Virus record (IMG/VR): IMGVR_UViG_3300035698_013344
Location: 1 to 29,857 of that record
Source of the DNA: a virus
Direction: 5' to 3' (one strand)
DNA length: 29,857 bases
Both the position numbers and the translations under genes were made by a program. Shown one piece after another: positions 3,808 to 29,857 of this stretch; the first letter of the stretch is position 1, and each line of letters begins with the position of its first letter. A model generated the notes under the pieces. The model had not been told where the DNA came from and searched no databases. It saw nothing but the letters and a program-made list of their open reading frames with translations.

Positions 3808-3854
3808 AAAAAATTTCCCGAGATAAAACGAAGTCTTGGTTCTGAAAGCTGAAA

Positions 3855-5297: not shown

Positions 5298-5956
5298 GTA
5301 GGCGTATTTTATTGGTAGCACCCCATGCTGACGACGAATTGTTTGGGGCTGGAGGGACACTGCTGCGAATGAAAGCGCAGGGGCACGTTATCAAATTGGT
5401 GCTAGTTGCCTGTTCGGATATTTTGCTAAACCATCTGGACAGAAAGGTTGCTGGCGATACAAGACGGCGTGAGTTCGAGGAGTCGGCACGTATCCTATCC
5501 ACCGAGGAGTCGATAATTTATTTTATGAAGGACTCGGAATTGGACGCGCAACCGATTGCACAGCTAGTCTCGCACCTGGATCGCGACATTGATGAGTTCA
5601 AGCCGGATGTGATCTTTATTCCAGAGCCAAGCTATCACCAGGATCACCAACATGTGCATCGGGCATGTGTGGCAGCGCTCAGGCCGACAAAAGAACGGTT
5701 GCCATCAAGAATCTTGGCATACGAGGTGCCGACATCCACCGGCATCCAAGATAGGTTTGTGCCAAACGTTTACGTGGATGTATCTGATTTCGTTGAAGAA
5801 AAGAAAAGCGTGCTCAAGGATGTGTACGCGTCTCAATACAGTGCCGAGCGCGGGAAGCTGACCATAGATGGGATGGTGAGGCATGGGAGTTATCGTGGTA
5901 TCGAGGCCGGTCTTGAACACGCGGAAGCATTTCAACTGTTGAGGGAAGTGACATGA
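5294..5956 (+). CDS. PIG-L/LmbE-family zinc-dependent N-deacetylase
   Basis: This is a 220-aa protein. ATG 5294 overlaps the upstream stop and sits behind AGGAGG. The hallmark PHADDE motif is at residues 10-15 (H11, D14 and E15 as in the family P/A-H-P-D-D-E), and the second metal/catalytic motif H115-x-D117-H118-x3-H122 follows in SYHQDHQHVHRA. Length is normal for the family. Known members remove acetyl from N-acetylglucosamine in GPI precursors, mycothiol/bacillithiol precursors, diacetylchitobiose or glycopeptide antibiotics. All recognisable metal ligands are present, so activity is plausible. Beside five glycosyltransferase-type genes it probably frees an amine on an N-acetyl sugar. The substrate is inferred, not shown. 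Confidence 0.88.
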   Translation: MSRRILLVAPHADDELFGAGGTLLRMKAQGHVIKLVLVACSDILLNHLDRKVAGDTRRREFEESARILSTEESIIYFMKDSELDAQPIAQLVSHLDRDIDEFKPDVIFIPEPSYHQDHQHVHRACVAALRPTKERLPSRILAYEVPTSTGIQDRFVPNVYVDVSDFVEEKKSVLKDVYASQYSAERGKLTIDGMVRHGSYRGIEAGLEHAEAFQLLREVT

Positions 5957-6846
5957 AAATTGCCCTGCACGATGAGCATCGATTGCTGGATAGGTTCGAG
6001 TTCTCCAAGCACGTCGAGCTTTCTACCCTGAAGGATGCGGATTGCTTGGTCGCCGTCAATGAGGATCTTGGGTTCGACAAGGGGAAGACAGTGCTGCTCA
6101 TGATGGAGCCCTACGGTGTTGATGGCTCAGAGGAGTATTTCGACCGCTCAGAAGAATACTTGATGTTCGCTACCTATGACCGCTCAAGATGCCGGGAACT
6201 GTTCTTTTGCAAGGATGCGTCTGTTTGGCCCATGGAGCCTGTTCATAGGCTGAGACAGAACACGATGGGATCCCTGAGTGATCGATCTGTCTACTTTGCC
6301 GGTCAAACATTTGGGTCAAAGAGTGATGGGAAAACAATTTATCACCTCAGAAAGAGAATTGTGTCCGGGTTGGAGAAGCGCGGGCTTCATGTCTTTGCCG
6401 TTGGAAGAGGGTTCTCCGGTCAGACGGCGAACAACTTCTCTCGTATCGTGACAGTCAGGGTAGCCAAGATGAGGGAGATTGTTTCCACTGGCACGGCGTT
6501 CGTCCTTTGCATGGAGAACACGATTACGCCCGGTTATGTCAGCGAGAAGTTTCACGACGGCATTTTGTCAAGAAGGGTGCCGTTGTACCTGGGCTGTCCA
6601 AATATCGAAGACTATGTTCCCACGGATATGTTCGTTGATTTGAGAGACTTTTATGACGGGGACACGGTTGATATAGATGGCGTGTTCGACAGATTGATGA
6701 CCATGACGGAAGATGAGTACGGGTCTATTCTCGCCGCTGGAGAATCATGGCTGAACACGTTTGACAATGGTGCGTTCGCGGTGTGGCAGAAACGGATGTG
6801 CCGCCGAATACTGAAATTACTGGGAGTAGAAGGGGTGTCTGAGTGA
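5953..6846 (+). CDS. GT10 fucosyltransferase-like glycosyltransferase, first copy
   Basis: This is a 297-aa protein whose ATG overlaps the deacetylase stop (ATGA). The alpha-1,3-fucosyltransferase C-terminal signature spans residues 183-223: FVLCMENTITPGYVSEKFHD followed by a V-P-L-Y-L-G-x-P-N-I core and YVP. In GT10 enzymes this E-N...GY-x-(S/T)-E-K region binds GDP-fucose or a related GDP-sugar. The N-terminal half (MEPYGVDG at about 51-58) fits the variable acceptor domain. It is shorter than eukaryotic enzymes but near the size of compact bacterial ones, and no transmembrane segment is seen. No GDP-fucose synthesis genes are in the window, so donor supply must come from the host or elsewhere in the genome. 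A paralog lies at 9355. Confidence 0.85.
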   Translation: MKIALHDEHRLLDRFEFSKHVELSTLKDADCLVAVNEDLGFDKGKTVLLMMEPYGVDGSEEYFDRSEEYLMFATYDRSRCRELFFCKDASVWPMEPVHRLRQNTMGSLSDRSVYFAGQTFGSKSDGKTIYHLRKRIVSGLEKRGLHVFAVGRGFSGQTANNFSRIVTVRVAKMREIVSTGTAFVLCMENTITPGYVSEKFHDGILSRRVPLYLGCPNIEDYVPTDMFVDLRDFYDGDTVDIDGVFDRLMTMTEDEYGSILAAGESWLNTFDNGAFAVWQKRMCRRILKLLGVEGVSE

Positions 6847-7730
6847 GAACATATATCATACCAGAGGCGGGTGGAGATGCTGGAGTTGGTGCCCTTCGAA
6901 TGTTGGCCGACTGTGAACCAGATGCCCATGTGGTGTTGGTTGATGCAAGGTTTCCAAACCCATCGAATGGATTATGGCCAGAGGACAGAACGACGCACAT
7001 CCAGGTTCCGATTGTTGAGGGGAACCCCACTGGGGCAAAGGCCGCGTTCTTTGAGCAGTTTGATCCGCTTGGTATTGATGACTTCGAATTGCTCCCTACA
7101 GGAGAATTCTTCCCAGAAGTTGTGTTTATGATTGACGATGAGAGGTATTGCCATTTCATGCCCAGCGAGGATGGGTGGAAGCTGTCTCGCGACAAGAAAT
7201 CGCTTTCACGCGAAATATCATGCTTCGCAAACGCAAAGGATGCATGGACAAATCGCACGCCGTTAATCAAACCAAGATATGGATGCGGATCGCGTGGAGT
7301 GTTCATCATCCATACCGAAGAGGAGGCGATGGCAATACGGATGTCTCCGCTAGAGAGCATCTTCACGGAGTACATCCTGGGAGACGACTATTTGGTAGAT
7401 GTCGTGAATGGGAATGCCTGGACACGCAGAATCACTCGGCAGCGAGGGGGCGGTGACGTTGAGATGGAGTTCATTCATCGTCCCGACCTTGAGTCGCTGG
7501 CGCTGACTGCTGCTCAGAAGCTATTCGCCCCTGTTCTCAACGCACAATTTCGAATTCCCGAATTCGGTGGTCCCGTTATGATTGATGTAGGCACCCGGCT
7601 ATCTGGGGCGGCTGTGGCAGCTTTGCAATTGGGTCTTAACCCCTTGGCCCTGGCATTGGGGTTGTGCCCGTTCACGAGGCCCATGGGGGCCGTCATGCGA
7701 AGGTGGGAGGAAGTCAGATGCTCTGGTTGA
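6843..7730 (+). CDS. ATP-grasp family ligase
   Basis: This is a 295-aa protein starting at GTG 6843 that overlaps the previous stop (GTGA). ATP-grasp features appear in order: a Lys-bearing strand and Gly-rich loop LIKPRYGCGSRGVFII at residues 141-156 (K143 for ATP phosphates), the hinge acid in TEYILGDDYLVDVV at 175-188 (E176), and the metal-binding end IDVGTRLSGA at 247-256 (D248, R252), the usual place of E-x-N-x-R. The order matches carbamoyl-phosphate-synthase-like ATP-grasp ligases, which join a carboxylate to an amine or thiol through an acyl-phosphate. Asp replacing the usual Glu in the last motif is mildly unusual. In this context it may acylate an amino-sugar or a similar amine. That reaction is inference. 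Confidence 0.8.
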   Translation: MRTYIIPEAGGDAGVGALRMLADCEPDAHVVLVDARFPNPSNGLWPEDRTTHIQVPIVEGNPTGAKAAFFEQFDPLGIDDFELLPTGEFFPEVVFMIDDERYCHFMPSEDGWKLSRDKKSLSREISCFANAKDAWTNRTPLIKPRYGCGSRGVFIIHTEEEAMAIRMSPLESIFTEYILGDDYLVDVVNGNAWTRRITRQRGGGDVEMEFIHRPDLESLALTAAQKLFAPVLNAQFRIPEFGGPVMIDVGTRLSGAAVAALQLGLNPLALALGLCPFTRPMGAVMRRWEEVRCSG

Positions 7731-8401
7731 TGATAGGGCTGGTTGTGCTCATGGTTGCACAGCAATGGTATCTGAGAGGGGCATTCTTCGGTCGAAAGGT
7801 TCCGAGGATGCCTTGCGGGTACAAGGATTTTCTCGTGCCAGTTGACAGCTATGTGGTGTACTGCAAGGAGCTTGAGCCGGGGCCGATCTACGGTTCCAAG
7901 AAGGGTGATGGGCACTATATCGGAGATGTTGGCTCACCCTCCGTTCTTATTGGGTTCTATATGACTGTATTGGATCGGCATTTTGCCGTAGCGCCGTGTG
8001 ACGTGACATTGGTGGACATCGAGCGGTGGGATGCTGGAGTAAATCTGCCGATGCTCGACTTGCTTGAATACACCAGGGTTATGTGGTTGCACAAATTTGA
8101 TCGATGGATGGAGAAGCACCTCGACGGTTGGCTGACTCAGAACGAGCGTGTGGTGTTGACCTTCGAGACTGGGCACGGATGGCAATTCAAGATGGTGCTG
8201 ATTGGTGACAAGTACGTGAACAAAATAGACGTGTTCGGGTCCGTGGGGGACAAGATGTTGGGCGGCACTACCGTCGCCTACATACACAGGGGATCACAGG
8301 TTGATTTGTTGGTGCCGCGCAATCGACTGCACCTGAAGCAGCACAACAATGTCAACAAGGGATTCAGGGCTGGCGATTCGTCGCTTATGGGAGAGAAGTG
8401 A
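7718..8401 (+). CDS. Membrane-anchored phosphatidylserine-decarboxylase-like protein
   Basis: This is a 227-aa protein. ATG 7718 follows GGGAGGAAG and overlaps the ATP-grasp gene by 13 bases; a longer in-frame start at 7664 lies within that gene and is not favoured. Residues 2-19 form one membrane helix. The PSD-type core follows: PVDS at 41-44 (D43, as in PVDG), a strand then DRHFAVAP at 86-93 (H88, matching the family V-H-V-N-R-x-P), and HRGSQVDLLVP at 190-200 with Gly-Ser (S193) where PSD proenzymes self-cleave to make the pyruvoyl group. All three residues of the Asp-His-Ser self-cleavage triad appear present. Known members decarboxylate phosphatidylserine or archaetidylserine at the membrane. 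The substrate here is unknown. Confidence 0.72.
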   Translation: MLWLMIGLVVLMVAQQWYLRGAFFGRKVPRMPCGYKDFLVPVDSYVVYCKELEPGPIYGSKKGDGHYIGDVGSPSVLIGFYMTVLDRHFAVAPCDVTLVDIERWDAGVNLPMLDLLEYTRVMWLHKFDRWMEKHLDGWLTQNERVVLTFETGHGWQFKMVLIGDKYVNKIDVFGSVGDKMLGGTTVAYIHRGSQVDLLVPRNRLHLKQHNNVNKGFRAGDSSLMGEK

Positions 8402-8550
8402 TGTTGAATTGGATTTTTGTTGCAGGAATGGTCCTCGGCGTGGGAGCCAGATTCTATGATGGCAAGATCATCTCGCTGACTGCTGGTCTGGCGGCTGGAG
8501 TTGTGTTGGTCGAGGTGGGCAAGCACGTCATGTGGTACCTGAGCAAATGA
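8401..8550 (+). CDS. Small membrane protein (49 aa)
   Basis: ATG 8401 shares its A with the TGA of the PSD-like gene (TGATG) behind GGGAGAGAAG, and the stop TGA 8548-8550 overlaps the next ATG (ATGA). The product has two hydrophobic stretches, WIFVAGMVLGVGA (about 4-16) and LTAGLAAGVVLVEVG (about 26-40), with little loop between them. The perfect coupling on both sides is strong evidence for a real gene. It may help anchor the adjacent membrane enzyme or be an independent membrane peptide. No family was recognised. Confidence 0.65.
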   Translation: MLNWIFVAGMVLGVGARFYDGKIISLTAGLAAGVVLVEVGKHVMWYLSK

Positions 8551-9344
8551 CTGTAGCTGTACTCATGCGGACCTTCAATGATGATCCGCGATTGATGCGC
8601 TATTCTGTGGAGTCGGTACTCCGACAGACGCATAAGGATTTACGCCTCTACATCCACAATGACGGGGGTGAGTATCCGGCATGGGTGAAGGAGCGATATG
8701 CCGACGATGACCGGATCGTTATAAGCGACAGCCATAAAAACTGTGGCCGGAGTACTGCTGGGAATGCCCTACTGGCTCGCATGGACGAAGACATCGACTG
8801 GTTCACATGGCTGGATGCTGACGGAGATCAATTCGGGCCGTCGTACCTGGAGTCGTTCCAACGAATGATTCCAGCATTGTCTGGTTGTGACTTTTGGTGG
8901 GCTAGGCCCGCTCTCATCGCGGGCATAAGTGTCACTACAGAGTGCAGCATCGTAAAAAGAATCACGGCAGCACAAACCTTTTTCGACGGTAATTTTGTGA
9001 ATGACAAGAGATTTTGGATCGACAGATTCTCGACCCCACCGTCTTTTGATGGAGGATTGGACCTTTGCCTGCCCATAAGTGCCAGAGGGGTTCTCTTCGA
9101 TGAGCGTGCAGATTTCGATGAAGACAGTGGCTGGGGTATCGACGTTGGGTTGTGGGCTGCTGATAGGTTTGACGTTTTCAAGAGCACGAAATGTGTCGGG
9201 CTGTCTGTCATGAGCAGTTACGATGGATTGCCTTTCTACATTAGAACGCTGGATACTAAAAACAAGTACAAGGGTGGCGTGTCCTTCAACGATGTGAATA
9301 GTAAAAAGAATGTGACCATGAACCAGCGATCAATAACTGGGTGA
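8547..9344 (+). CDS. GT2-like (GT-A fold) glycosyltransferase, first copy
   Basis: This is a 265-aa protein. ATG 8547 overlaps the stop of the small membrane gene; an in-frame GTG at 8532 would add five residues but is less well placed. GT-A features are clear: a start strand VAVLMRTFNDDP, then SVESVLRQTHKDLRLYIHND (the classic S-x-x-x-Q-T-x-x-x-x-x-x-x-x-x-D-D/G layout), NDGG at 38-41, and the metal-binding DxD within WLDADGDQFGP at 88-98. The C-terminal half carries a W-G-I-D segment typical of the acceptor-side acid. It is probably a soluble inverting transferase using a nucleotide sugar with Mn or Mg. A clear paralog follows at 10293. Confidence 0.83.
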   Translation: MTVAVLMRTFNDDPRLMRYSVESVLRQTHKDLRLYIHNDGGEYPAWVKERYADDDRIVISDSHKNCGRSTAGNALLARMDEDIDWFTWLDADGDQFGPSYLESFQRMIPALSGCDFWWARPALIAGISVTTECSIVKRITAAQTFFDGNFVNDKRFWIDRFSTPPSFDGGLDLCLPISARGVLFDERADFDEDSGWGIDVGLWAADRFDVFKSTKCVGLSVMSSYDGLPFYIRTLDTKNKYKGGVSFNDVNSKKNVTMNQRSITG

Positions 9345-9354
9345 CAGGCTAAGG

Positions 9355-10293
9355 ATGAAGATTTATCTCAAGCAAGATTGGTATACGTACCTGGACGTCG
9401 AGGCCATCGCCAACCGGGTGGAGCTTGTTGGATCTGCGGATGAAGCTGATTTCGTGATTAGTTGTTGCGAGTTCTTGGATGCCCCTCCCGAGAAGACAAT
9501 TATGGTGGCATCTGAACCACCTGTTTTCCCTGGCGGCGACTTGGCAAGGATTCACGACACCGCTGACAGATACCACGCATTCTTTTACTGGAATGCCGAC
9601 GATCACCCCAACGCCACGCCATTTCCAGTGAATGTGCTGAGTTGGCCGTATGACAATATGCTCTCAAGCCGTGAGGTGCGCGATGATACGACAATCACTG
9701 AGCGCAGGGTGTATTTCGCGGGAAGACGTGCCGAGCGTGAGAAGTCGGTCTACCCCGGACGTATCAGCCTGTACAAGACGAGACGCAAGATTGCCGAAGA
9801 ATTGCCTGGGCGGGGGATCCCTGTCACGGCTGTGGGGAGAGGATGGGACGTTGTTAGTCGCAGTGGTGAAGATCTTGATGTCAACATGTACATGAGCCGG
9901 ATGGATAAGCTCTTGGAGGTCAGCGAGTGTAGGGCAGACTTCATCCTGTGCGTCGAAAACAGCTATATGAGCGGTTACGTGACCGAGAAGATACATGATG
10001 GCTTTCGATCCGATAGGGTAGTGCTGTATCTGGGCACAAGTGACATCGAGAAGTACATCCCGACGACTTGCTTTTTGGACCTGAGAAAGTGGTACGACGC
10101 CGGGAGTGGGGCTTTTTACGTGCCTGGATTGGTGAAGTATCTCAAGAAAATGGGTCAGGGCGAGTATGATGATATTGTTGGTTCAGCACGTGCGTGGGTA
10201 AAGTCCTTGCTCGGTGGCGCTGACTACAAGGACCATAGCGAAAGCAAAAAATTGATGAGTGAGGCTATTCTCTCTTGCCTGGGAGTTGTGTGA
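9355..10293 (+). CDS. GT10 fucosyltransferase-like glycosyltransferase, second copy
   Basis: This is a 312-aa protein starting at ATG 9355, 10 bases after the GT2 stop, behind CTAAGG. The GT10 signature at residues 195-236 reads FILCVENSYMSGYVTEKIHD, then a V-V-L-Y-L-G core and IEKYIP, close to the canonical F-E-N-S...G-Y-V-T-E-K. MVASEPP at 50-56 and VYFAGRR at 119-125 also align with the first copy (MMEPYG, VYFAGQT), so the two are paralogs. This copy has a longer central loop. Its TGA overlaps the next GT2 start (TGATG). The likely donor is a GDP-sugar and the acceptor is unknown. Confidence 0.86.
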   Translation: MKIYLKQDWYTYLDVEAIANRVELVGSADEADFVISCCEFLDAPPEKTIMVASEPPVFPGGDLARIHDTADRYHAFFYWNADDHPNATPFPVNVLSWPYDNMLSSREVRDDTTITERRVYFAGRRAEREKSVYPGRISLYKTRRKIAEELPGRGIPVTAVGRGWDVVSRSGEDLDVNMYMSRMDKLLEVSECRADFILCVENSYMSGYVTEKIHDGFRSDRVVLYLGTSDIEKYIPTTCFLDLRKWYDAGSGAFYVPGLVKYLKKMGQGEYDDIVGSARAWVKSLLGGADYKDHSESKKLMSEAILSCLGVV

Positions 10294-12560: not shown

Positions 12561-13155
12561 GTATCTAAAGATAAAGAATCTCAAGTGTTTCCAAGAGGTC
12601 AAGGATAGGCTCGGACAGGGTTTCTCGTTGACCGAGGTGGCGAAGTACATCCACGAGGATCAGGGCGAATACCTTGAACTCGAACGCACAAGTCTCGTTT
12701 CCGTTCTCTCATCCTATCGTAAAGAGGAGATCTCACCCGCGCAATTGGTTGCACCCGTGCGCCCCAAGACTGTTATCGATGCGTTCAATAAGTTCGAGGA
12801 TGGAACTCTTGAGTTGAGCCAGCTCGAAGAATTGTACGATATACAAAAGAAACGCATCGAGATGGCCTTGGAGATGGAGAGCAGGTTCCCCGTCCTCAAC
12901 TCACGCCTAGAGACTGCGATTAATACCCTGGCTGGTCTGATAGAACAGAAGCACTCGGTCAAAATGGATCTTGGATTCAGTGGCGGGCGTCAAATCGGTA
13001 CGGTTACTATCAGGCCAGAGGCGATAGAGTCAGCAAGGCGGCAGTATGGTGAAAAGACTGCCGAGGCGCTCATGCGACCTGAGTCAAGAGGCAAGGTGCT
13101 GGATGTTCTCACACAGATTCGTGCGCTCCGCGAAAAAAATGAGGATGCTCCATGA
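12493..13155 (+). CDS. Possible terminase small subunit or DNA-binding protein
   Basis: This is a 220-aa protein. Three adjacent starts (GTG 12490, ATG 12493, ATG 12496) follow AGGTGATGGG; 12493 is chosen, and the gene overlaps the ParB-like gene by 68 bases. The N-terminus is strongly basic (RPRKRRKRISPK). It is followed by FSLTEVAKYIHEDQ, which could be a helix-turn-helix, a long helical middle (LEELYDIQKKRIEMALEME) and a C-terminal segment (RRQYGEKTAEALMRPE). It lies immediately upstream of, and overlaps, the large terminase (ATGA), the usual place for TerS. The assignment rests on position, size and basic/helical character, as no TerS family motif was recognised. Confidence 0.5.
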   Translation: MMDRPRKRRKRISPKITPKRQARYLKIKNLKCFQEVKDRLGQGFSLTEVAKYIHEDQGEYLELERTSLVSVLSSYRKEEISPAQLVAPVRPKTVIDAFNKFEDGTLELSQLEELYDIQKKRIEMALEMESRFPVLNSRLETAINTLAGLIEQKHSVKMDLGFSGGRQIGTVTIRPEAIESARRQYGEKTAEALMRPESRGKVLDVLTQIRALREKNEDAP

Positions 13156-16100
13156 TACGCAAAGACGGTGAGGGACGAATTCAAACTATCCGCACGAGAG
13201 GGGAGAGTGATCTTCGAATCGAAGAATCGTTGGGAAACCTGTTGCCGGATGAGATCGAGTTGTTGGAATCGTGCCTAAGCGATGAAGATAAGGTGGTTGA
13301 GCTTCTCGATCTACTTGGCGAATCTCGGTACAGAGAAATCCCAGTCCCCATGGAGCAGTTCCTGACTGACCCATATTACATGGGTGATTCGTGCAAGACG
13401 TTGTACCCAAGATTGCTTGAGGATCTGTGCGAATTGTTTGCACCTGGGGCTGGGTACAGGGAGGTTATTCTCACCGGATCAGTCGGGTGGGGGAAATGTG
13501 TGGATGGAAGCACCGAGGTGTACGACACGTCCACCGGGAGCAGAAGGCGCGTTGATGATCTGGGTAGTTATGACGTTGCTTCTTGTGATGATGGCAAGAT
13601 TGTTGCTGCTCCATCTGTCGCAATGAAATCTGGCGTCAAGGAATGCGTTTCGGTTGAACTGGCGGGCGGTCAGAGCGTTGTCGTCAGCAATGACCACAAA
13701 ATCCTTACTGCAAATGGTTGGACAGAAGCGGCGGCTGTGCATGTTGGTGATTTGGTTGCCACTCCAAGACGGTTGCCTCGCCCAGAGTCCCCGTTGCGCG
13801 TGAGTGACGATGAGGTGACGTATGTTGCTTATTTGTGCGCAGATGGGGGATGTACTGCTGGCGTAAGCTTCACTAATGCAGATGATGTGCTCTTGAACGA
13901 TTTCAAGCGGATTTCTCACGACATGTGGAGAGAGCGTAGTTCGGGAAGTAAGAATCGAACACCTGGGTGCGATGAGGTGTTTGGCAATTCGGGTAAAGCC
14001 ACGGACTTGAAACCTCGCGGGGTCAAATGGGTGGTTGAAAAATATGATTTGGCGCATCGAGCACCACAGAAGCGGGTACCGGCAGAGTTCTATGGCCTGC
14101 CGGATGAACAGGTGGCGCTTTTCCTGAATCGTTTTTGGGCGTGCGATGGGTCGCTGTATACGGGAAGTCCACGAAAGATAGAGTGTGGTTTGGCGTCGTA
14201 TGGAATGATTGTCGATCTTCGGCATCTCTTGCTAAGGCTCGGCATTCCCTCAAGTGTGTCAAAGCTCAAGAAAAGCTATGTGTATAATGGTGAGAGGCGG
14301 TGGCGTGATGCTTGGCGTATCCAGATTACAGAGGCTGAGTATATTGCATTGTTCTTTGAAAAAATTGGCCCGATTCTAAGCAAAGAAGAATCCAGTAGAA
14401 AGCTCATGCATGACGTTGCTAAGATTCCGTCAAACACGAACACGGATATAGTTCCAATCGGTACCAAAGAATTGACTGAAATAAGGGTTGAGCTTGGGAA
14501 TGGTGGAGTAGGGTTAGCCTCAAGATTTGGCAGTCCACGCAGCCAATTGCTTGGAAGACGCCGCTTTCAAAGATTGTGTGACGAGTATGGATATGCTGGC
14601 AAGTATGCGTGGCTGGCGACATCGGATATTTTCTGGGGTAGAGTGAAGAGCGTGTGCTCTGTCGGGCGCAAAGATGTGTACGATTTGTCTGTCCCAGAGA
14701 CGAAATCATTTGTTGGCGATGGAATAGTTCTGCATAATACATTCTTCGCTGCGTTGGCGTTAGCTCGCATGACCTATGAGCTTTCGTGTCTCATCAACCC
14801 ACAGATCTCATACGGGATGTCACCCGGCTCAGAGATGGCGTTCATCCTCGTGTCCAAGAACCTTGTGCTGGCGAGACAGGTGTTGAAGTCGGCGGTAGAT
14901 GACAAGATCAAAATCTCGCCATATTTCATGGAGAATTTTCACGGGAAATTGGGCAAAGAAAGCACACAATTCCCCAATAACATACAGATGAACATCGCGT
15001 CTTATGGTTCAGAGCGTATCCTGGGCATTAACGTGTTCGGGGGTGCGATGGATGAAACAAACTTCGCGATGTCGAGCAAAGAGGTGATCACCACTGGTAT
15101 CGGCCAAAGAAGGACAGTGGCTCATTATGATCATGCCGAGCGTGTGTACACGTCGCTTGTCCGTCGTATCAAGTCGCGATTCCAGCGAGCTGGCGGTGAT
15201 CTTCCAGGGATGATGATTCTCATATCCTCGGCAACGACTGTAGGCTCGTTTCTGGATAGACGCATTCTTGAGAACAAGGATGACCCATCGTTATTCATCA
15301 GGGACTACGCCACCTGGGATGTTAAGCCAAAGGGTAACTTCAGTGGCGTGACGTTCAAGGTGCTGTGTGGGGGTTCTTCCCTGCGATCCCGTGTGCTGCT
15401 TGAAGGTGAGCAGCCGCGTGCGTCAGAGTTGGAAGAAAACGATGCGCGTGTCATCTCTGTTCCAGAAGAATACCGTGATGACTTTGAACGCGATTTAGAG
15501 AATGCAATTCGTGACATTGCCGGTATATCGACCACGGCAATTTCGGCCTTTATCCAGCGGCCTGAACGTGTTGACGAGTGTATTATCGATGCGCCCCATC
15601 CGTTCTCTGAAAACTCGTGGAGATATGGTGATCCTGGGTATTTCGTGTGGGACAGACTCTCGGTGGTAAAGAAGCGACGGTTGCCCGGTGGGTTCGAGGA
15701 AGAGTTTTGGGTGCCAAGGCGTAATCCTACCAAGCTAAGGTACGTTCACATCGATACGTCGTTGAGTGGGGACGCGACGGGAATTGCGATGGGTCATATA
15801 GATCGATGGGTTGAGGTCGTGCGCGTGGCACCGGATGGTGAGCATTTTACGGACACAGTGCCGTACTACATCATCGATCTTATGCTTCAAGTCCGGCCAC
15901 CTCTGGGCGAGCAGATATACCTGCCTGAAATTCGACGATTGGTTTATGAGTTGATGGCACATGGGTTCAAGCTGATCGGATTTTCATGTGACCAGTATCA
16001 AAGCGCCGAAACCTTGCAGCAGATGAAGCGACGTGGCATTGCTTCGGATGTGCTGAGCGTTGACAGGACAGAAGAGCCGTACAACGCTCTAAGGTCAGCG

Positions 16101-16424
16101 ATCTACGAACGTCGTATTGAGTATTACGACTACAAGCCGTTCATTACAGAGGTAAAAGCCCTAGAGCATGATCGGGTCCGGGGAAAGGTTGATCACCCGC
16201 TCGCTGGCTCGAAGGATGTTTCAGATGCTGTCGCGGGCGTTGTGTTCGGGATCGCACAAAAACTTTCCAGAATGCCAATGGGTATGTTAAAAGAGGAAGG
16301 TGCTGATGATTCTGTTGACAATAGATGGGTGATGCGAAAGAATCCTGCTAATGGTGATGGTGGCAAGGATAAGAAGTTGCCAAGCGTTGGAAGACCTAGA
16401 ATGCCGTTTCTTATGGGTGACTAA
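13152..16424 (+). CDS. Terminase large subunit, interrupted by an intein
   Basis: This is a 1090-aa precursor; after splicing TerL would be 676 residues. ATG 13152 overlaps the upstream stop. The N-extein ends at TGSVGWGK (108-115) and the C-extein begins with Thr530, rebuilding a Walker A motif G-S-V-G-W-G-K-T. Walker B is FGGAMDE, with D634 and E635. The C-terminal RNase H-like nuclease carries D868 (YVHIDTSLSGD), D947 (FSCDQYQS) and D1025 (DVSDAVAG). TerL pumps DNA into the prohead through the portal using ATP and cuts the concatemer. Activity should require intein removal, because the intein separates the P-loop Lys from Thr. The gene is followed by the portal with a one-base overlap (TAATG). 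Confidence 0.93.
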   Translation: MIRKDGEGRIQTIRTRGESDLRIEESLGNLLPDEIELLESCLSDEDKVVELLDLLGESRYREIPVPMEQFLTDPYYMGDSCKTLYPRLLEDLCELFAPGAGYREVILTGSVGWGKCVDGSTEVYDTSTGSRRRVDDLGSYDVASCDDGKIVAAPSVAMKSGVKECVSVELAGGQSVVVSNDHKILTANGWTEAAAVHVGDLVATPRRLPRPESPLRVSDDEVTYVAYLCADGGCTAGVSFTNADDVLLNDFKRISHDMWRERSSGSKNRTPGCDEVFGNSGKATDLKPRGVKWVVEKYDLAHRAPQKRVPAEFYGLPDEQVALFLNRFWACDGSLYTGSPRKIECGLASYGMIVDLRHLLLRLGIPSSVSKLKKSYVYNGERRWRDAWRIQITEAEYIALFFEKIGPILSKEESSRKLMHDVAKIPSNTNTDIVPIGTKELTEIRVELGNGGVGLASRFGSPRSQLLGRRRFQRLCDEYGYAGKYAWLATSDIFWGRVKSVCSVGRKDVYDLSVPETKSFVGDGIVLHNTFFAALALARMTYELSCLINPQISYGMSPGSEMAFILVSKNLVLARQVLKSAVDDKIKISPYFMENFHGKLGKESTQFPNNIQMNIASYGSERILGINVFGGAMDETNFAMSSKEVITTGIGQRRTVAHYDHAERVYTSLVRRIKSRFQRAGGDLPGMMILISSATTVGSFLDRRILENKDDPSLFIRDYATWDVKPKGNFSGVTFKVLCGGSSLRSRVLLEGEQPRASELEENDARVISVPEEYRDDFERDLENAIRDIAGISTTAISAFIQRPERVDECIIDAPHPFSENSWRYGDPGYFVWDRLSVVKKRRLPGGFEEEFWVPRRNPTKLRYVHIDTSLSGDATGIAMGHIDRWVEVVRVAPDGEHFTDTVPYYIIDLMLQVRPPLGEQIYLPEIRRLVYELMAHGFKLIGFSCDQYQSAETLQQMKRRGIASDVLSVDRTEEPYNALRSAIYERRIEYYDYKPFITEVKALEHDRVRGKVDHPLAGSKDVSDAVAGVVFGIAQKLSRMPMGMLKEEGADDSVDNRWVMRKNPANGDGGKDKKLPSVGRPRMPFLMGD
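13497..14738 (+). mobile_element. LAGLIDADG intein in the TerL P-loop
   Basis: This is an in-frame 414-residue insertion covering TerL precursor residues 116-529. It starts with Cys1 (block A, CVDGSTEVYD). Block B is SNDHKIL, with Ser in place of the usual Thr of T-x-x-H, and VGDLVATPR. The block F/G end is KDVYDLSVPETKSFVGDG, then V-L-H-N with the penultimate His and terminal Asn, followed by Thr +1. The central part has two LAGLIDADG-type motifs, YVAYLCADGG (acid at D231) and FLNRFWACDGS (acid at D332), so a homing endonuclease is probably intact. All residues needed for standard class 1 splicing are visible except the block F His, which is Lys here. Confidence 0.93.
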
Positions 16425-18130
16425 TGCCTCAAATTCGTGACTGGCTCAAGAGTGTTCGATACTGGTGGACTGGCGACAAAGAGTCGCATACCGCAGAGTT
16501 GGCGCGAGGAGTATCTGTCGCAGGTAGCGGTAGCAACAAGAACAGTATGCTTGGCTCTCAATGGGGCACCCTGTCAAACGATTCAGGCTACAGTGATCTC
16601 CAAAAATCTCTTCTCTTAGATCCAAGGCTCATGAATCGGTTTCGGGACTATGAGGAGATGGATGACTACGCGGAGTTGTCATCGGCCCTGGACATATACG
16701 CCGACGACTCGACCATACCAGACAGCGTACATCAGAAATCCATTTGGTCTGTTTGCCAGGACAAGATAGTTCGAGACATCATTGATGACATGCTGGTCAG
16801 ACGTCTTCGCATCGAGGATGACATTCATGGCCTGTCTCGCGCCTTGTGCAAATACGGCAATGCCTATGCAGAGGTGGTCGTCAATGAGACTGGTGTGCTG
16901 GGGCTGAACTATTTGTCACCGCCAACAATGAGGCGGATACAAGATGATAAGGGTGCGCTCCTTGCGTTCATTCAGTGCCCAAAGGGGCAGTTTGATGTTA
17001 ATGGCGAGGAGCTTGAAAAAGCGATAAAGGAACCAAAGCACTCAAGAAAACCGATCAACGGAAGTATCGTTTTCGAGCCGTGGGAAATTGTCCACTGGAG
17101 GTTGCGCACAAAGGATATGCGATCTCCTTATGGGTACTCAGTACTTGATTCTGCGCGTTGGATTTGGCGTAGGCTTATGATGATGGAGGATACTGCGCTG
17201 GTCTACAAGTTGACCCGCTCTCCAGCACGATATGCTTTCTACATCGATACTGGCGACCTTCCGCCCGATGAGGCCATAGCTTACGTGCGGCAAGTACAAC
17301 GCCAGTACCAGAAGAAGAAGATGCTCAACCCGACAACTGGGCATCTTGACTTCAGGTATAACCCATTGAGCCCATCGGAGGATTTCTGGGTTCCGACGCA
17401 TGGCGGCAAGGATTCCACGCGCATAGAAGTGCTTGCTGGTCCCGACTATCAGGCCATGGAAGATGTTGAGTACTTCCGATCCAAAATGCTCGCGGCCATC
17501 AAGGTTCCGCGCCGGTATCTTGGGCTTGAGGAGGGTGCCAACCGGTCGCTCTCACAGGAAGATGTGCGGTTTGCACGTACTGAAATGCGTGTTCAAAGAG
17601 AAATACGGAATGGGTTGCAAAACGTTGCGAGGCTTCATCTGGCGGCATTGGGCATTGACCCAGACTTAGTTGAGCATCACATGGAAATGACGCAGCCGTC
17701 CTACATCTTCGAATTGGCCCAAATTGAGGTGAGAAGCTCTCAGGCGCAGCTTGCGTTCAGTCTTGAGCAGTATTTCCCGAAGGATTGGATCATCGAACAC
17801 GTCTTCGGGTTCTCCAAGGGCGATGCCGATATTATCACAAAGTCGAAAGGTGGAGAGATGCACAGCGATGCGCTGCGAAATGCTTCCACCGAAGCACAGG
17901 TGATCAGGGAATACCCAGAGATCACGGGCATGGCACCAGGAGGGGCAACACCTCCGGGGGCGGAAATGTCACCTGAAGGTCACCCAAAGCAAGAGAGTCT
18001 TGACCATCGCATAAGAAGGCTAGTACAAGTAGTTGAGGAGAATGGTGTGATTACTCGGGATACAGCGATGCAGATTAGAAAAGTGGTTCCGTCAATACGG
18101 AAACTGCACACCAGAAAGCTAACGGGGTAA
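16424..18130 (+). CDS. Portal protein (T4 gp20-like)
   Basis: This is a 568-aa protein starting at ATG 16424, which shares a base with the TerL stop. The sequence order is that of T4-type portals: an N-terminal linker, then YAELSSALDIYADDST at about residues 82-98, KYGNAYAEVVVNE in the wing, PWEIVHWRLRT, and SVLDSARWIWRRLMMMEDT leading into the stem and crown. VPRRYLGLEEGANRSLSQEDVRFAR matches the conserved late segment. The portal is a dodecameric ring at one capsid vertex, the docking point for TerL, and nucleates the core and shell. Length is close to T4 gp20 (524 aa). The C-terminal 60 residues are basic and variable. Confidence 0.9.
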   Translation: MPQIRDWLKSVRYWWTGDKESHTAELARGVSVAGSGSNKNSMLGSQWGTLSNDSGYSDLQKSLLLDPRLMNRFRDYEEMDDYAELSSALDIYADDSTIPDSVHQKSIWSVCQDKIVRDIIDDMLVRRLRIEDDIHGLSRALCKYGNAYAEVVVNETGVLGLNYLSPPTMRRIQDDKGALLAFIQCPKGQFDVNGEELEKAIKEPKHSRKPINGSIVFEPWEIVHWRLRTKDMRSPYGYSVLDSARWIWRRLMMMEDTALVYKLTRSPARYAFYIDTGDLPPDEAIAYVRQVQRQYQKKKMLNPTTGHLDFRYNPLSPSEDFWVPTHGGKDSTRIEVLAGPDYQAMEDVEYFRSKMLAAIKVPRRYLGLEEGANRSLSQEDVRFARTEMRVQREIRNGLQNVARLHLAALGIDPDLVEHHMEMTQPSYIFELAQIEVRSSQAQLAFSLEQYFPKDWIIEHVFGFSKGDADIITKSKGGEMHSDALRNASTEAQVIREYPEITGMAPGGATPPGAEMSPEGHPKQESLDHRIRRLVQVVEENGVITRDTAMQIRKVVPSIRKLHTRKLTG

Positions 18131-18133
18131 AGT

Positions 18134-18979
18134 ATGCCGTTTATTACGAAAGAAGTGTTGGAAGAGATGAGGGCCGGTAGCTTTGAGGATCGTATCTTCA
18201 TGGCAGAGGATGTGGCCAGCCAACTGTTGGGCAAAGATGTGACGGTACTTTCCACTATGAGCGATCATGCAATCGTCGTGGATGAGGATGAGGAATTTCA
18301 TCGCATCAACTACGTCGAGAAGGATGGCGAGTTGACCGATGTTGTCCTGGTCGAAGTCGATGTGCCGTTGGTTGACGACATCAGTAAGTACGTTGCCGAG
18401 CAGATCAATTCCATCGTCAGCGGTGTGCTAGACGATCAGAAGGACGTAGATGCGCGAAATCGATTGCGCGAGTTGTCGCGTATCGTAAAGAAAGACGAAG
18501 ATTATTTCGTGTCCCAAATTACGCCGAAGTTAGAAGAGGGTATGGACAGCAAGTGGAGTGACTTCTACGATCAGGACACAACTTCTATCCGTGCGAAATT
18601 GCGGGGTAAAATACGTGAAAGCGAAGGCCGGATTCCGCGTACAAAATACGCTGAATTGGGGTCGCACAAGTTGACACAGGTTGAGGAGCAGTTGCACTCT
18701 TCTCTCAAGGTTTTGTCAGAGCTTATGTTAGAGATGGTTGACTCTTGTGGTAAACTTGTGTTTGATAAAGAGGATGAACTGGAAGCCATCAGGGATTCGT
18801 TGAGCGGTGAAGCAAAGACCATTGGTGGTCTTGTAGCCCAAGCCGAACGGTTGATGTTGTCAAGAGATTTGCTGACGATGGCCGAGGCGCATGACATGCT
18901 CGCACAGCGGGCTAAAACCATGGTGATTGTTTCCGAGTTTTTAGCTCGGGGCACCAACGATGAGGAGATGGCCAAATGA
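18134..18979 (+). CDS. Head-region protein of unknown function, possibly prohead core
   Basis: This is a 281-aa protein starting three bases after the portal stop and overlapping the next gene (ATGA). It is acidic and largely helical. The N-terminal 75 residues contain beta-like stretches (VTVLSTMSDHAIVVDEDEE), and the rest looks like long helices (QLHSSLKVLSELMLEMVDS, AQAERLMLSRDLLTMAEA), suggesting a rod-like or coiled-coil structural protein. Its place between portal and protease is where T4 has the small core genes 67 and 68. No homology to those could be recognised, so the core role is positional inference. No membrane segment or catalytic motif is visible. Confidence 0.65.
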   Translation: MPFITKEVLEEMRAGSFEDRIFMAEDVASQLLGKDVTVLSTMSDHAIVVDEDEEFHRINYVEKDGELTDVVLVEVDVPLVDDISKYVAEQINSIVSGVLDDQKDVDARNRLRELSRIVKKDEDYFVSQITPKLEEGMDSKWSDFYDQDTTSIRAKLRGKIRESEGRIPRTKYAELGSHKLTQVEEQLHSSLKVLSELMLEMVDSCGKLVFDKEDELEAIRDSLSGEAKTIGGLVAQAERLMLSRDLLTMAEAHDMLAQRAKTMVIVSEFLARGTNDEEMAK

Positions 18980-19935
18980 CAGTTAAAAAAGTAGTAAGTT
19001 CGACGCTGCAAGAGGATCTGGATGCAATCGGCATCAAAGCATCAGTCAAAGATCAGGTGCTGATGGCTGGACAGGATGCAACGGATCTGACCGAAGATGC
19101 GGATGATTCTGTCGCAGCGGGCGGTGACGTTGATCCAATTGATGGGGAGTTGGTAACCATGGAGTTGCTCACTCGCATCACGGAGCTTCCTCTCACCGAG
19201 ATGGACATGGATGCTTACGACGAACTCCTGGCAGAGCTTCAGGAGAAGATCGTGCCAGAGGGTGACGAAGCTCTGGAAGAGGCCGCGAAGGAAGTCCTGG
19301 CCGTGCTCGTTGCCAACAAGAAGGCCATCGAGATGGACGAGGCGTTCCGCTGGGCATTCAAGCCCGGTTCCATGAAGCGCATGAAGCAGAAGATCAAGAC
19401 CGGTGCCGCCAAGATCATAGCCCGTCTCAAGGGCAAGAAGACCTACAAGCGCGGTCGTTCCAAGATCCTCAAGGGCGCAAAGCGTCGTAGGAAGAAGTCT
19501 TCCGTGAAGCGCATGGCAAGGATGCGACGTAAAAAGCTCGCTGCATCCGCCGACTTCGCCATAGAGTTGCAGGGTCTGCTCGATGAGAGTCGCCATGCCA
19601 CGCAGGGTCCAAGGGCCGAGTGTGTGGATCGTCTGGTCAGCATCTTCGAGTTGCTCAACGAGGCGTATGGCGATGGCGACGTGACTTCCGTTCTTGAGAG
19701 TGCCATGGAGCCACTCATCGAGAAGGAGAATGTCGGCGCTCTCCACGAGGATTCGATGGATGATGAAACATTCGTCGCAACCTTGTCCCCGTGTCTCAGT
19801 CTTGTCACCCGTTCACTGGAAGCCATCGAGGGCGGACAGATCAAATTCGAATATCTCGAAGATGTGGACGATGACGACAATGGCGATGGCGACGACGACG
19901 AGGACTTGGCGGGAAACTTGCGAGAGCTGGCCTAA
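18976..19935 (+). CDS. Prohead-core-like protein with basic centre and acidic end (zero-frame product)
   Basis: This is a 319-aa protein whose ATG overlaps the previous stop. Residues about 1-110 are acidic and helical. Residues about 130-190 are extremely basic (KGKKTYKRGRSKILKGAKRR and RMARMRRKK), followed by a helical region and a Asp-rich end (DVDDDDNGDGDDDED) before GNLRELA. The charge blocks recall the paired acidic/basic core proteins gp67 and gp68 of T4, and the location between portal and protease fits a core component. Near the 3' end lies a slippery heptamer with downstream hairpin, which may direct some ribosomes into the -1 frame and append 72 residues. Core function is inference from position and charge. 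Confidence 0.7.
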   Translation: MTVKKVVSSTLQEDLDAIGIKASVKDQVLMAGQDATDLTEDADDSVAAGGDVDPIDGELVTMELLTRITELPLTEMDMDAYDELLAELQEKIVPEGDEALEEAAKEVLAVLVANKKAIEMDEAFRWAFKPGSMKRMKQKIKTGAAKIIARLKGKKTYKRGRSKILKGAKRRRKKSSVKRMARMRRKKLAASADFAIELQGLLDESRHATQGPRAECVDRLVSIFELLNEAYGDGDVTSVLESAMEPLIEKENVGALHEDSMDDETFVATLSPCLSLVTRSLEAIEGGQIKFEYLEDVDDDDNGDGDDDEDLAGNLRELA

Positions 19936-19947
19936 TAGAAGGTCGGC
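19911..19947 (+). promoter_or_regulatory. Candidate programmed -1 ribosomal frameshift signal
   Basis: The heptamer GGGAAAC at 19911-19917 sits in the frame X-XXY-YYZ relative to the 18976 gene (zero-frame codons GGA-AAC). After an 8-base spacer, GCTGGCC (19926-19932) can pair with GGTCGGC (19941-19947), giving 7 pairs including two G-U, around an 8-base loop that holds the zero-frame TAA. A CGAGGA at 19899-19904 just upstream could act as an internal Shine-Dalgarno-like stimulator, as in dnaX. Lambda G/GT uses the nearly identical GGGAAAG. A final AAC codon is usually less slippery in bacteria than AAG, so efficiency may be low. Confidence 0.6.
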
Positions 19948-20135
19948 GTAAGCGAGAAAAGTTAGGCACGCTCACGCGGAGCGGTAGACGGAAGTTATTG
20001 GGGATTGCAGATGTCGAGAAAATACGCTTTGGCCCAACTGGTGCGAAAAAAACGACGAGAAAAGTCTCGTTCGGTGCCAAAGCCCGCATGCAAATGCGTA
20101 GAGCTACTGGAATCCCATTCCCACCAAGGAGATGA
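19917..20135 (+). CDS. Basic C-terminal extension read in the -1 frame (transframe tail of the 18976 gene)
   Basis: From 19917 the -1 frame stays open for 72 codons to TGA 20133-20135, five bases before the protease ATG. The tail is strongly basic with short, ordered-looking segments: GLIEGRRKREKLGTL, RSGRRKLLGIADVEK, IRFGPTGAKKTTRKVSF, then a M-Q-M-R-R segment ending IPFPPRR. It has no ATG start in its first 57 codons; the first usable start is TTG 19998, which would give a separate 45-aa peptide. The spacing to the next gene is typical of a true gene end here. With frameshifting, the fused protein would be about 386 residues. The alternative is an independent small gene or chance openness. 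Confidence 0.5.
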   Translation, partial: LARAGLIEGRRKREKLGTLTRSGRRKLLGIADVEKIRFGPTGAKKTTRKVSFGAKARMQMRRATGIPFPPRR

Positions 20136-20139
20136 ACCC

Positions 20140-21747
20140 ATGAGCGGAAAGCTGCTGCTTGATAATATGCCGATAAGACTCGTTCTGGATGAAGCCAAAG
20201 ATGGAAAAATCATGGCTCGCGGTGAGTTCGCTCGGTATGACGTGCCTACGAAAAACAAACGCCTCTACAGTAAGAAGATCTACGGGCGTGAGATCGATAG
20301 GCTTCAGGAAGACATCAACAGCAGCCGTCTGCTGGGTGAACTCGATCATCCCGCCGATGGAAAGACCAAGTTACAACGGTCAAGCCACATCATCAGGGAA
20401 CTGAGGATGGACGAAAACGGTTGTGTCATGGGCGCGGCTGAAATCCTTCCAACACCCAATGGGAAGACCCTGGCGGCATTGCTAAAGGCTGGCGTTGAAA
20501 TCGGCGTGTCATCCCGTGGATTCGGTTCCGTGACCCCTATGGAGGGCGGTGGCGATGCCGTGGGTGAGGATTTTGTCTTGAAGACGTTCGACTTTGTTGC
20601 CGATCCCGCCGTGAGAACCGCGTACCCCGACATCTTCTCCGAGGATGTGGATTCCGATTTCGACATTGATGCAATCAAAGAAGAGATGCCGGAAGTATAC
20701 GCCCACATCGAAGAGGGGTTGATGGATCGCGCTGAAAAACAAGCGAAGGACAAGCTTGACAAGTCTCAGTCGAATCTAATTTCCTCGACCGAGAAGCGTG
20801 TACGTAGCGAAGAGCGAGAAAAGTTCGAACGGGATCTCGTGAGCCAACTGGCAGAGATTCGATCTGAAATCGTGACAGAGGTTCGTGAAGAGTTTTCATC
20901 TGACCCGAATATTGGCGCATCAAAAGCTGTTTTGGCACAGATTGCCGAGATGGTATTGCCTTTCAGTTCTGAGCCAGATGAGAACTCTGTTTCCGATGCA
21001 TTGCGTGAGCGTGACGGTAATATCGTAAAGCTCAAAGAAGAGCTGGACGAGTACATGCGCATTGCCAAGAAGTCTGGATTTCGTCTACATATCGAGCAGA
21101 AAATATCGGATCATCCGGCAAAGGCGTCTATCAGAGCGTTGATGTCGGAATCCCATGACCTTGAGAGTCTTGCGGATGTAGATGAACGGTTGGCGGCAGT
21201 AATGGATGATTTGTCTGACTTTGTTCCGCCCGAAGAGGGCACGGTCAATGAAGAGATTGAATCACTTCTTGAATCCAATGCTGTGCTGAGTCGCAAGCTC
21301 AAGGAAAAAGAACGAAGGAACATCGACCTTGATCGTAAGCTGGGTAGAGCTGTTGAAATTGGTGAAAAGTTGAACTCGAAGTTGGAAACGTCAAAGAAGG
21401 GTGCGAAGAAGCTGGAAGAAGATCTTCGCGTGGCCACTCTGGACATCCACAAAGCGAGAAGTGTTGTTGGGCTGACAAATGGACGTGCGTTGATAAAGTT
21501 GCTTGAGAGCGTTGATTCGCTCGAAGAGGTTGATCTGATGGTTGAGAAGCGAGGGCGGACTACGATGTCTGATCCGGTGCTGGAGAAAATGCGTGGAGGC
21601 ATCCAGCGGGGTTTGGTTGAAAATCCGACATCGCTTCAAGAGGATGGTCAAGGCGGTAATGGTACCGGTGAAACCGTTCTCGAAGACTTGGCCGATCTTG
21701 GCCTGGATCTAGAAGAGCAACAAAAGTTGGCTGGTGAAGGCGTATAG
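20140..21747 (+). CDS. Prohead protease (T4 gp21-like) fused to a long scaffold-like coiled-coil region
   Basis: This is a 535-aa protein. ATG 20140 is chosen because AAGGAGA lies at ideal distance; an upstream in-frame start at 20005 would extend into the preceding coding tail. Residues 1-170 are the protease: LGELDHPADG with H70, SHIIREL, LPTPNGKTL, the GVSSRGFGS motif at 122-130 with the nucleophilic Ser at 124 or 125, and FDFVADPA at 151-158. This is the herpes-assemblin-like fold of gp21, which trims scaffold and capsid after assembly. Residues about 180-535 are acidic/basic helix with heptads (EKQAKDKLDKSQSNL, SRKLKEKERRNIDLDRKL), as expected of a scaffold such as gp22. No separate scaffold gene lies before the capsid gene. 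Confidence 0.85.
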   Translation: MSGKLLLDNMPIRLVLDEAKDGKIMARGEFARYDVPTKNKRLYSKKIYGREIDRLQEDINSSRLLGELDHPADGKTKLQRSSHIIRELRMDENGCVMGAAEILPTPNGKTLAALLKAGVEIGVSSRGFGSVTPMEGGGDAVGEDFVLKTFDFVADPAVRTAYPDIFSEDVDSDFDIDAIKEEMPEVYAHIEEGLMDRAEKQAKDKLDKSQSNLISSTEKRVRSEEREKFERDLVSQLAEIRSEIVTEVREEFSSDPNIGASKAVLAQIAEMVLPFSSEPDENSVSDALRERDGNIVKLKEELDEYMRIAKKSGFRLHIEQKISDHPAKASIRALMSESHDLESLADVDERLAAVMDDLSDFVPPEEGTVNEEIESLLESNAVLSRKLKEKERRNIDLDRKLGRAVEIGEKLNSKLETSKKGAKKLEEDLRVATLDIHKARSVVGLTNGRALIKLLESVDSLEEVDLMVEKRGRTTMSDPVLEKMRGGIQRGLVENPTSLQEDGQGGNGTGETVLEDLADLGLDLEEQQKLAGEGV

Positions 21748-21778: not shown

Positions 21779-23380
21779 ATGTCAGCAAGAAAACTGCTCC
21801 AAGAGCAGCGAAAAGGGATTGCGGACGGTGATTACGTAAACGCACTGGTAGGCAAGTGGGGTCCGATGATTGGCAAGCAGCCGATGTCGGATTACGGAAG
21901 GGGTATCACCGCCCTGTTGATGGAGAATCAGTCCGAGCATCTTCAGCAGCTCAAGGAAGACGCTACCCTCTCCACCAACGTCGGTTCTTTCACCAAGTAC
22001 ATCTTCCCCGTCCTTCGGAGGGTGTTCCCGAACCTGATTGCCAATCAGATCGTGTCGGTTCAGCCGATGAATGCTCCGGTTGGCGCGGTATTCAATTACG
22101 AGTACCGTTACGGTGGACGCAAGGGTTCGGCGGTTCCACAGGCCGGTATCTCCAACAACCCATGGGATCCAACCTATGACGGACAGTTGGAAGCTGGCGA
22201 CGACATGATCAAGAACTTCGGAATGTACTATTCCTCGGAGTACAACGATTATGATCAGTGCTGCACCAATACCGCCGCAGCCGCTGGTGCTCTGACTCAG
22301 GCATCTGCCAACTGTCGTACCCCCGAGTGGGGTCCGATCCGCGCCCCCGGCACGAGCGGACAGCGCACGTTCTACGTCAAGGCATGGTATCGCGCACTCG
22401 ACACGAGCGGAACCGGTCTGGACGCAACAGTCGTGGCAACCCTCGATGCTACCGGATCAACCACGAACCTCGTAGACAACTACGGAAACATCGTCGGCAC
22501 GTTCGACGTGGCAACCGGCAACTGGAGTATCAATGCGGCGGACAGTGCTGCGGCGAACACCACGTTCACGGCTGGCACTGTGATTTACTTCCAGTATTTC
22601 ACGAACTCGGAGCTGATCGGATCTTCGACCACAGGCGCAAAGATTCCAGACGTAAGCTTGCACCTCCAGATGAACACCATCACCGCAGAGCCACGGAAGC
22701 TGAAGGCGTCCTGGTCTGTGGAGGCGGCAGAGGATCTGAAGCGGATGCACGGTCTGAACGCCGAGTCCGAGTTGGTCGCTGGCATCTCGAACGAGATCGC
22801 CATGGAGATCGACAGGGGCATCCTGGGCGAGATCTACGCGGCTGTTGCTCACGTAGCAACCTATGCGTATGCTCCCGGCGTCCCCGGCGAGCTGGAGAGC
22901 ATCAGGCGACTGATCACCCAGATCGATGCTGTGAGTGCCGCCATTCACAAGAGCACCCTCCGTGCGCCCGGTAACTTCATCGTGACGAGCCCAGCGGTCT
23001 GTGCATTGCTGGGACAGCTCACCTCACACGGTGACTACCAGAAGGCGGTTTCCCAGGTCACGCCGCCCTCCTACGGACCGATGACCAGTAACTTCGGAAT
23101 CCAGCTCGTTGGAACCCTGATGAACAAGTACACCGTTTATCAGGATCCCTACCAGACCACGAACGACGTGATTGTCGGGCTGCGTGGATCGAGCTACCTC
23201 GATGCGGGCTTCGTGTTCGCTCCGTACATACCGCTGCAAGCTACCCCAACGTTCCAGGATCCCGATACCCTGGAGAACAAGAAGGGTCTGTGGTCCCGGT
23301 ATGCGACGAAGCTCCTGCGTCCCGAGTACTACGGAAAGGTAACCGTGAGTAACCTGCCGACAGTGGTCACGACCCTGTAG
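21779..23380 (+). CDS. Major capsid protein (T4 gp23-like, HK97 fold)
   Basis: This is a 533-aa protein starting at ATG 21779 behind CGGGAGATTG. The gp23 family signature lies at residues about 66-105: VGSFTKYIFPVLRRVFPNLI, then ANQIVSVQPMNAPVGAVF. Later segments include PRKLKASWSVEAAEDLKRMH and GLNAESELVAGISNEIAMEI, also characteristic. Length is close to T4 gp23 (521 aa). Residues about 160-290, Thr/Ala/Gly-rich, look like an inserted surface domain. LKE at 58-60 resembles the gp21 cleavage consensus (I/L-x-E) at about the position where T4 gp23 is cut. Codons are notably C/G-ending compared with neighbours, fitting a highly expressed gene, and a terminator follows directly. Confidence 0.93.
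   Translation: MSARKLLQEQRKGIADGDYVNALVGKWGPMIGKQPMSDYGRGITALLMENQSEHLQQLKEDATLSTNVGSFTKYIFPVLRRVFPNLIANQIVSVQPMNAPVGAVFNYEYRYGGRKGSAVPQAGISNNPWDPTYDGQLEAGDDMIKNFGMYYSSEYNDYDQCCTNTAAAAGALTQASANCRTPEWGPIRAPGTSGQRTFYVKAWYRALDTSGTGLDATVVATLDATGSTTNLVDNYGNIVGTFDVATGNWSINAADSAAANTTFTAGTVIYFQYFTNSELIGSSTTGAKIPDVSLHLQMNTITAEPRKLKASWSVEAAEDLKRMHGLNAESELVAGISNEIAMEIDRGILGEIYAAVAHVATYAYAPGVPGELESIRRLITQIDAVSAAIHKSTLRAPGNFIVTSPAVCALLGQLTSHGDYQKAVSQVTPPSYGPMTSNFGIQLVGTLMNKYTVYQDPYQTTNDVIVGLRGSSYLDAGFVFAPYIPLQATPTFQDPDTLENKKGLWSRYATKLLRPEYYGKVTVSNLPTVVTTL

Positions 23381-29408: not shown

Positions 29409-29857
<449 letters not shown>

Follow-up and report, generated by a model that had tools for sequence, protein, structure and literature searches.

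Tail chaperones and coat proteins are the phage products for which frameshifts have been described (PMC5009743; PMC10885494). Frameshifted major head proteins include gene 10B of T7/T3 and those of Lactobacillus phage A2 and Listeria phages, and the coat-protein extensions of T3 and A2 are Ig-like (PMC5009743). Among slippery sites, G_GGA_AAG shifts readily in E. coli, and G_GGA_AAC is prominent in mammalian work, the latter heptamer being also reported for the archaeal virus HCTV-1 (PMC5009743). In T4, the prohead protease gp21 cleaves after L/I-x-E (PMC9026906). Within the parts of the open-access literature covered, no programmed frameshift was found in a T4-type prohead core, scaffold or internal-protein gene; the original prediction likewise named no head-core counterpart of lambda G/GT.

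The window analysed here, a metagenomic IMG/VR fragment of 29,857 bases, carries a T4-type head module. Its gene order is a gene in terminase position (13152-16424), followed on the plus strand by a gp20-type portal (16424-18130), a gene encoding 281 aa (18134-18979), a core gene (18976-19935), a gp21-type prohead protease (20140-21747) and a gp23-type major capsid protein (21779-23380). Relatives have a gene of similar size in the interval between portal and core gene. The protease (Peptidase_S77), whose Shine-Dalgarno sequence AAGGAG lies at 20126-20131, has a long C-terminal extension and is probably a gp21/gp22-like fusion. The capsid protein contains an [L/F/I]xE motif near residue 60, which in relatives is kept at the likely propeptide end (40 loci). 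The terminase-position gene matched Intein_splicing and LAGLIDADG, and it is apparently a large terminase gene carrying an intein.

The zero-frame product of the core gene is a protein of 319 aa with homologues in relatives, a basic middle and an acidic C-terminus. It had been called a core-like head protein, a designation that comes from its context and its position between a T4-type portal and protease, where T4 has gp67 and gp68; the combination of acidic and basic character is also shared with these proteins. No homology was detected: comparison of core or tail profiles with gp67/gp68 gave hhalign probabilities below 1%. In the sources covered no frameshift is described for gp67/gp68. At E<=0.001 the core protein could be placed in no family of PHROGs or Pfam, and neither core nor tail matched PHROGs at the limits used; the two are protein families without a PHROGs or Pfam match. 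Many of the relatives' core proteins contain a conserved mid-protein CPxGxR...C motif with a Lys/Arg-rich block; in the window protein the basic block is present and the cysteines are absent.

Inspection of the 3' end of the core gene located a slippery heptamer, GGGAAAC, at 19911-19917 (+), in the exact X_XXY_YYZ phase of the gene (G_GGA_AAC), as had been predicted. The codons GAG GAC TTG GCG precede GGA AAC, and TTG CGA GAG CTG GCC follow it up to the tandem stops TAA TAG (19933-19938, +), so that the zero-frame stop is 15 nt past the heptamer. The expected spacer of 8 nt (TTGCGAGA, 19918-19925, +) leads to a putative stimulatory hairpin at 19926-19947 (+), whose arms GCTGGCCT (19926-19933) and AGGTCGGC (19940-19947) enclose the loop AATAGA; it coincides with the peak of helix starts in relatives. 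The 55-nt fold at this site has a predicted energy of -20.4 kcal/mol, with a z of -4.03 against dinucleotide shuffles. The hairpin is thus where it was proposed, with 8 bp instead of 7 bp, and the zero-frame UAA is only partly in the loop, beginning on the final base of the 5' arm. An Rfam search found no element. Transcriptional slippage is unlikely, given that GGGAAAC includes no long homopolymer. Frameshift efficiency in the host of the window is uncertain, because G_GGA_AAC is prominent in mammalian work and the ready shifting in E. coli is that of G_GGA_AAG; the original prediction had raised the same doubt about the AAC codon.

The -1 frame is open from 19917 for the predicted 72 codons, up to a TGA at 20133-20135 (+), and it shows third-position substitution bias and homology to a tail in relatives. 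The full transframe product would have ~386 aa. The tail stop is four bases, not five, from the protease ATG at 20140. The anticipated opposition of charges was also observed, the tail having a net charge of +19 and the final 60 residues of the zero-frame product one of -16. A predicted prohead-protease site, L-I-E, is encoded in the -1 frame at 19932-19940 (+), ending 8 residues into the tail and agreeing with the L/I-X-E specificity of gp21 (PMC9026906). Cleavage there would release a basic peptide of 64 aa (GRRKREK...PFPPRR; 19941-20132, +). The AlphaFold model of the tail was of low confidence (pLDDT 62.6), and no known homologue of the tail was found beyond the clade described below.

Scans for close relatives with the protease, tail and capsid protein of the window gave no matches, and the clade was reached through a two-sequence protease alignment (window and L009) and then a 12-member one. 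About 90 uncultivated relatives were collected, with protease identities of ~33-46%, and three more were found in MAG contigs; the tails of L203 and L236 look by eye most like that of the window. Among isolate phages (a 50,697-record collection) the core-tail gene pair is absent, and neither family had a match at the limits used, apart from one chance match. This was a seemingly syntenic Yersinia phage, the sole match to the tail in the phage collection (E=10), which was attributed to chance because its head protein belongs to a different family (phrog_240). The corresponding position is also occupied by genes in Microcystis phage Mel-JY01 and in Flavobacterium immuto phages, with no evident similarity by eye. 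In some relatives, including L236 (3546-6389), the protease gene seems to hold an intein directly after the ELDHP motif, at what is presumably the active-site histidine.

Conservation of heptamer, hairpin and tail among related phages, proposed as a check of the original prediction, was found. An in-phase slippery heptamer is present in 65 of the 69 records with a homologous tail in the -1 frame, which served as denominator (the set of 65 being defined by tail and heptamer together); the remaining four belong to a sister group and have their own starts. Removal of near-copies left 45 non-redundant loci, with the heptamers GGGAAAC (39), AAAAAAC (2), AAACCCT (1), GGGAAAT (1), GGGAAAA (1) and CCCTTTG (1), the last (L204/L205) being an unusual site. 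Inspection added eight records that have both GGGAAAC and a tail, the tail being divergent, of the L203 type, in six. In 39/45 loci the stop comes 0 or 3 nt after the heptamer. Inside related core genes, in-phase X_XXY_YYZ sequences occur at 0.23% of codons (32/14,116) and GGGAAAC at none (0/14,116); chance is excluded because a heptamer never seen in 14,116 core-gene codons recurs at the core-gene end in 39/45 loci. Glycine is encoded by GGA in 16% of cases in core genes and in 41/41 of the GGGAAA sites; because the loci are related to each other, multiplied probabilities exaggerate the significance of this contrast. The signal is conserved across diverged relatives beyond what codon usage would give.

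A 3' structure stands 5-9 nt downstream of the heptamer, with some loci weak. The helix starts 6-9 nt past the heptamer in most loci (6-8 nt in 29/45), with a clustering of starts at 7-9 nt, and a strong helix at offset 8 was found in 58% of loci versus ~1% elsewhere; a few loci (L178, L193 and L252) lack a clear hairpin close to the heptamer. Double base-pair changes affect 6/21 and 1/9 pairs in two subgroups, some of them compensatory, a modest signal, as this DNA is under constraint from the tail protein too. Judged by these sequence comparisons, a frameshift near the core-gene stop is well supported, and the signal, its conservation, the coding of the tail in the -1 frame and the LxE enrichment described below are supported. 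Upstream, AGGA, GGAG or GAGG at about -13 to -4 of the heptamer is about fourfold enriched in relatives (27-33% vs 7%), which could reflect stimulation by an internal Shine-Dalgarno sequence or simply the presence of acidic codons.

Not all relatives use this arrangement. In the sister group (L181-L184, L251, L254, L255, L263, L260 and L265) the tail is a stand-alone gene with ATG or GTG and a leader of about 10-12 residues that ends in LxE. In a protease tree made by a quick method, with several forks open, the frameshift arrangement was present in 38/38 main-clade members with a readable core gene (the truncated L202 was left out), and the separate-gene form made up a sister clade that includes one frameshift member, L267, with the frameshift members L243, L257 and L261 nearby. 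A distant lineage (L009/L186/L188) is without the tail. The first reading of the window is largely borne out; the free-standing gene form, the protease-site motif and the clade-wide spread are additions to it.

We consider it very probable that a hairpin-stimulated programmed -1 frameshift yields an acidic-ended core protein and a minor basic-tailed fusion, and that the tail is freed by the protease. That frameshifting takes place, in what stoichiometry, that cleavage follows, and what becomes of the peptide and what it does are matters we infer from sequence. With the hairpin 8 nt downstream as stimulator, ribosomes would slip by -1 at G_GGA_AAC, and the core gene would give two products, the normal acidic-ended protein and the minor fusion with the basic tail. 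The core part would probably carry the fusion into the prohead core, where the gp21-type protease would probably cut after L-x-E at the start of the tail and degrade the core part. The head would retain a basic peptide of 55-65 residues (64 in the window) that lacks further sites and could serve to neutralise DNA or could be ejected, and how many tails each head receives would be set by the efficiency of frameshifting.

The distribution of the cleavage motif bears on the release step. Within the first 25 tail residues, [LIV]xE is present in 41/45 loci, compared with 9.7 in shuffles (maximum 18), and absent in 4/45. Nearly all tails have [L/I/V]xE just ahead of the basic block and none past it: 40 LxE motifs were counted in tail residues 1-14, and past position 14 there was no [LI]xE in 2666 residues versus 11 expected. 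The core protein has 3.4 LxE per 100 aa versus 1.6 expected. If the frameshift is real and the fusion instead acts whole in core assembly or size control, as lambda GT does, with no release of a peptide, the opposite C-terminal charges could tune core assembly, and lambda G and GT are both absent from the mature virion (PMC5009743); the enrichment of LxE at one place, its absence later and the short LxE leader of the stand-alone tail gene make this alternative unlikely.

A mainly regulatory frameshift, coupling translation of the protease to the core gene with the tail peptide as a by-product, would account for the proximity of tail stop and protease start in most loci, and for the window TGA located directly after the protease Shine-Dalgarno sequence. 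Against it, close pairs of -1 frame tails differ by 1705 synonymous and 553 non-synonymous codon changes, and the same differences read in the zero frame are 287 and 2023, counts that give the direction and not the number of events since the pairs overlap. By this measure the tail is evolving as a protein in the -1 frame, with purifying selection on its residues. The tail is moreover conserved across distantly related phages of the clade and kept by the sister group as a stand-alone gene, and coupling as the main function is accordingly quite improbable; it may be an added role of the frameshift.

The stand-alone ATG or GTG gene of the sister group also raises the prospect that the tail in the window is encoded by a small gene of its own, translated from TTG 19998, the alternative named in the original prediction, or by re-initiation past the core stop. 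A start at TTG 19998 would drop the conserved LIE and SGRR, 36/45 frameshift loci contain no ATG, GTG or TTG in the tail frame ahead of the LxE motif, and nothing would explain why a heptamer and, at a fixed distance from it, a hairpin are conserved, all of which makes a separate gene very hard to credit. An assembly or sequencing indel or gene decay, conceivable for a metagenomic fragment, is refuted by the relatives, dozens of independent contigs (MAG contigs included) having the same frame relation and heptamer, and its probability is negligible.

As in lambda G/GT, an assembly gene of a tailed phage would have a -1 shift close to its 3' end, at a similar heptamer, and so give a minor, C-terminally extended product. 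Unlike G/GT, which precedes the tape-measure gene, the window gene encodes a head-core-like protein of a different family, shows no G/GT homology in PHROGs at the limits used and lies between the gp20-type portal and the gp21-type protease; its extension has a predicted head-protease site and is a free gene in the sister group. As in the frameshifted major head proteins, the shift would determine how much of a head protein is made in a minor, extended form; in this case the protein is an internal core protein and not a coat protein, and it would gain a basic, probably releasable tail.

The predicted fate of the tail is like that of T4 IPI-IPIII, which reach the core through targeting and are released there by gp21 cleavage after L/I-x-E, and an L/I-x-E between targeting and mature parts is present here as a sequence motif. 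The short leader of the sister group resembles the T4 capsid targeting sequence (10 residues in IPIII). In contrast to the N-terminal leaders and separate genes of IPI-IPIII, to which no homology was shown, the whole core protein would be the carrier. We favour, with some reserve, a reading in which a T4-type head is loaded with a basic internal peptide that is dosed by frameshifting and released by the protease, with the core protein as carrier and a short leader on a separate gene used by the sister lineage. If true, this would explain how the proportion of bare and cargo-carrying scaffold molecules is fixed in a phage, and it would be a second way in which proteins are packed into T4-type heads. 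In this uncultivated clade the tail would probably escape automated gene callers.

Outside the head module, the window contains an upstream run of large ORFs resembling glycosyltransferases or sugar-modifying genes (2371-10293), and at 29424-29855 an ORF with collagen-like G-x-T repeats that continues past the contig end.
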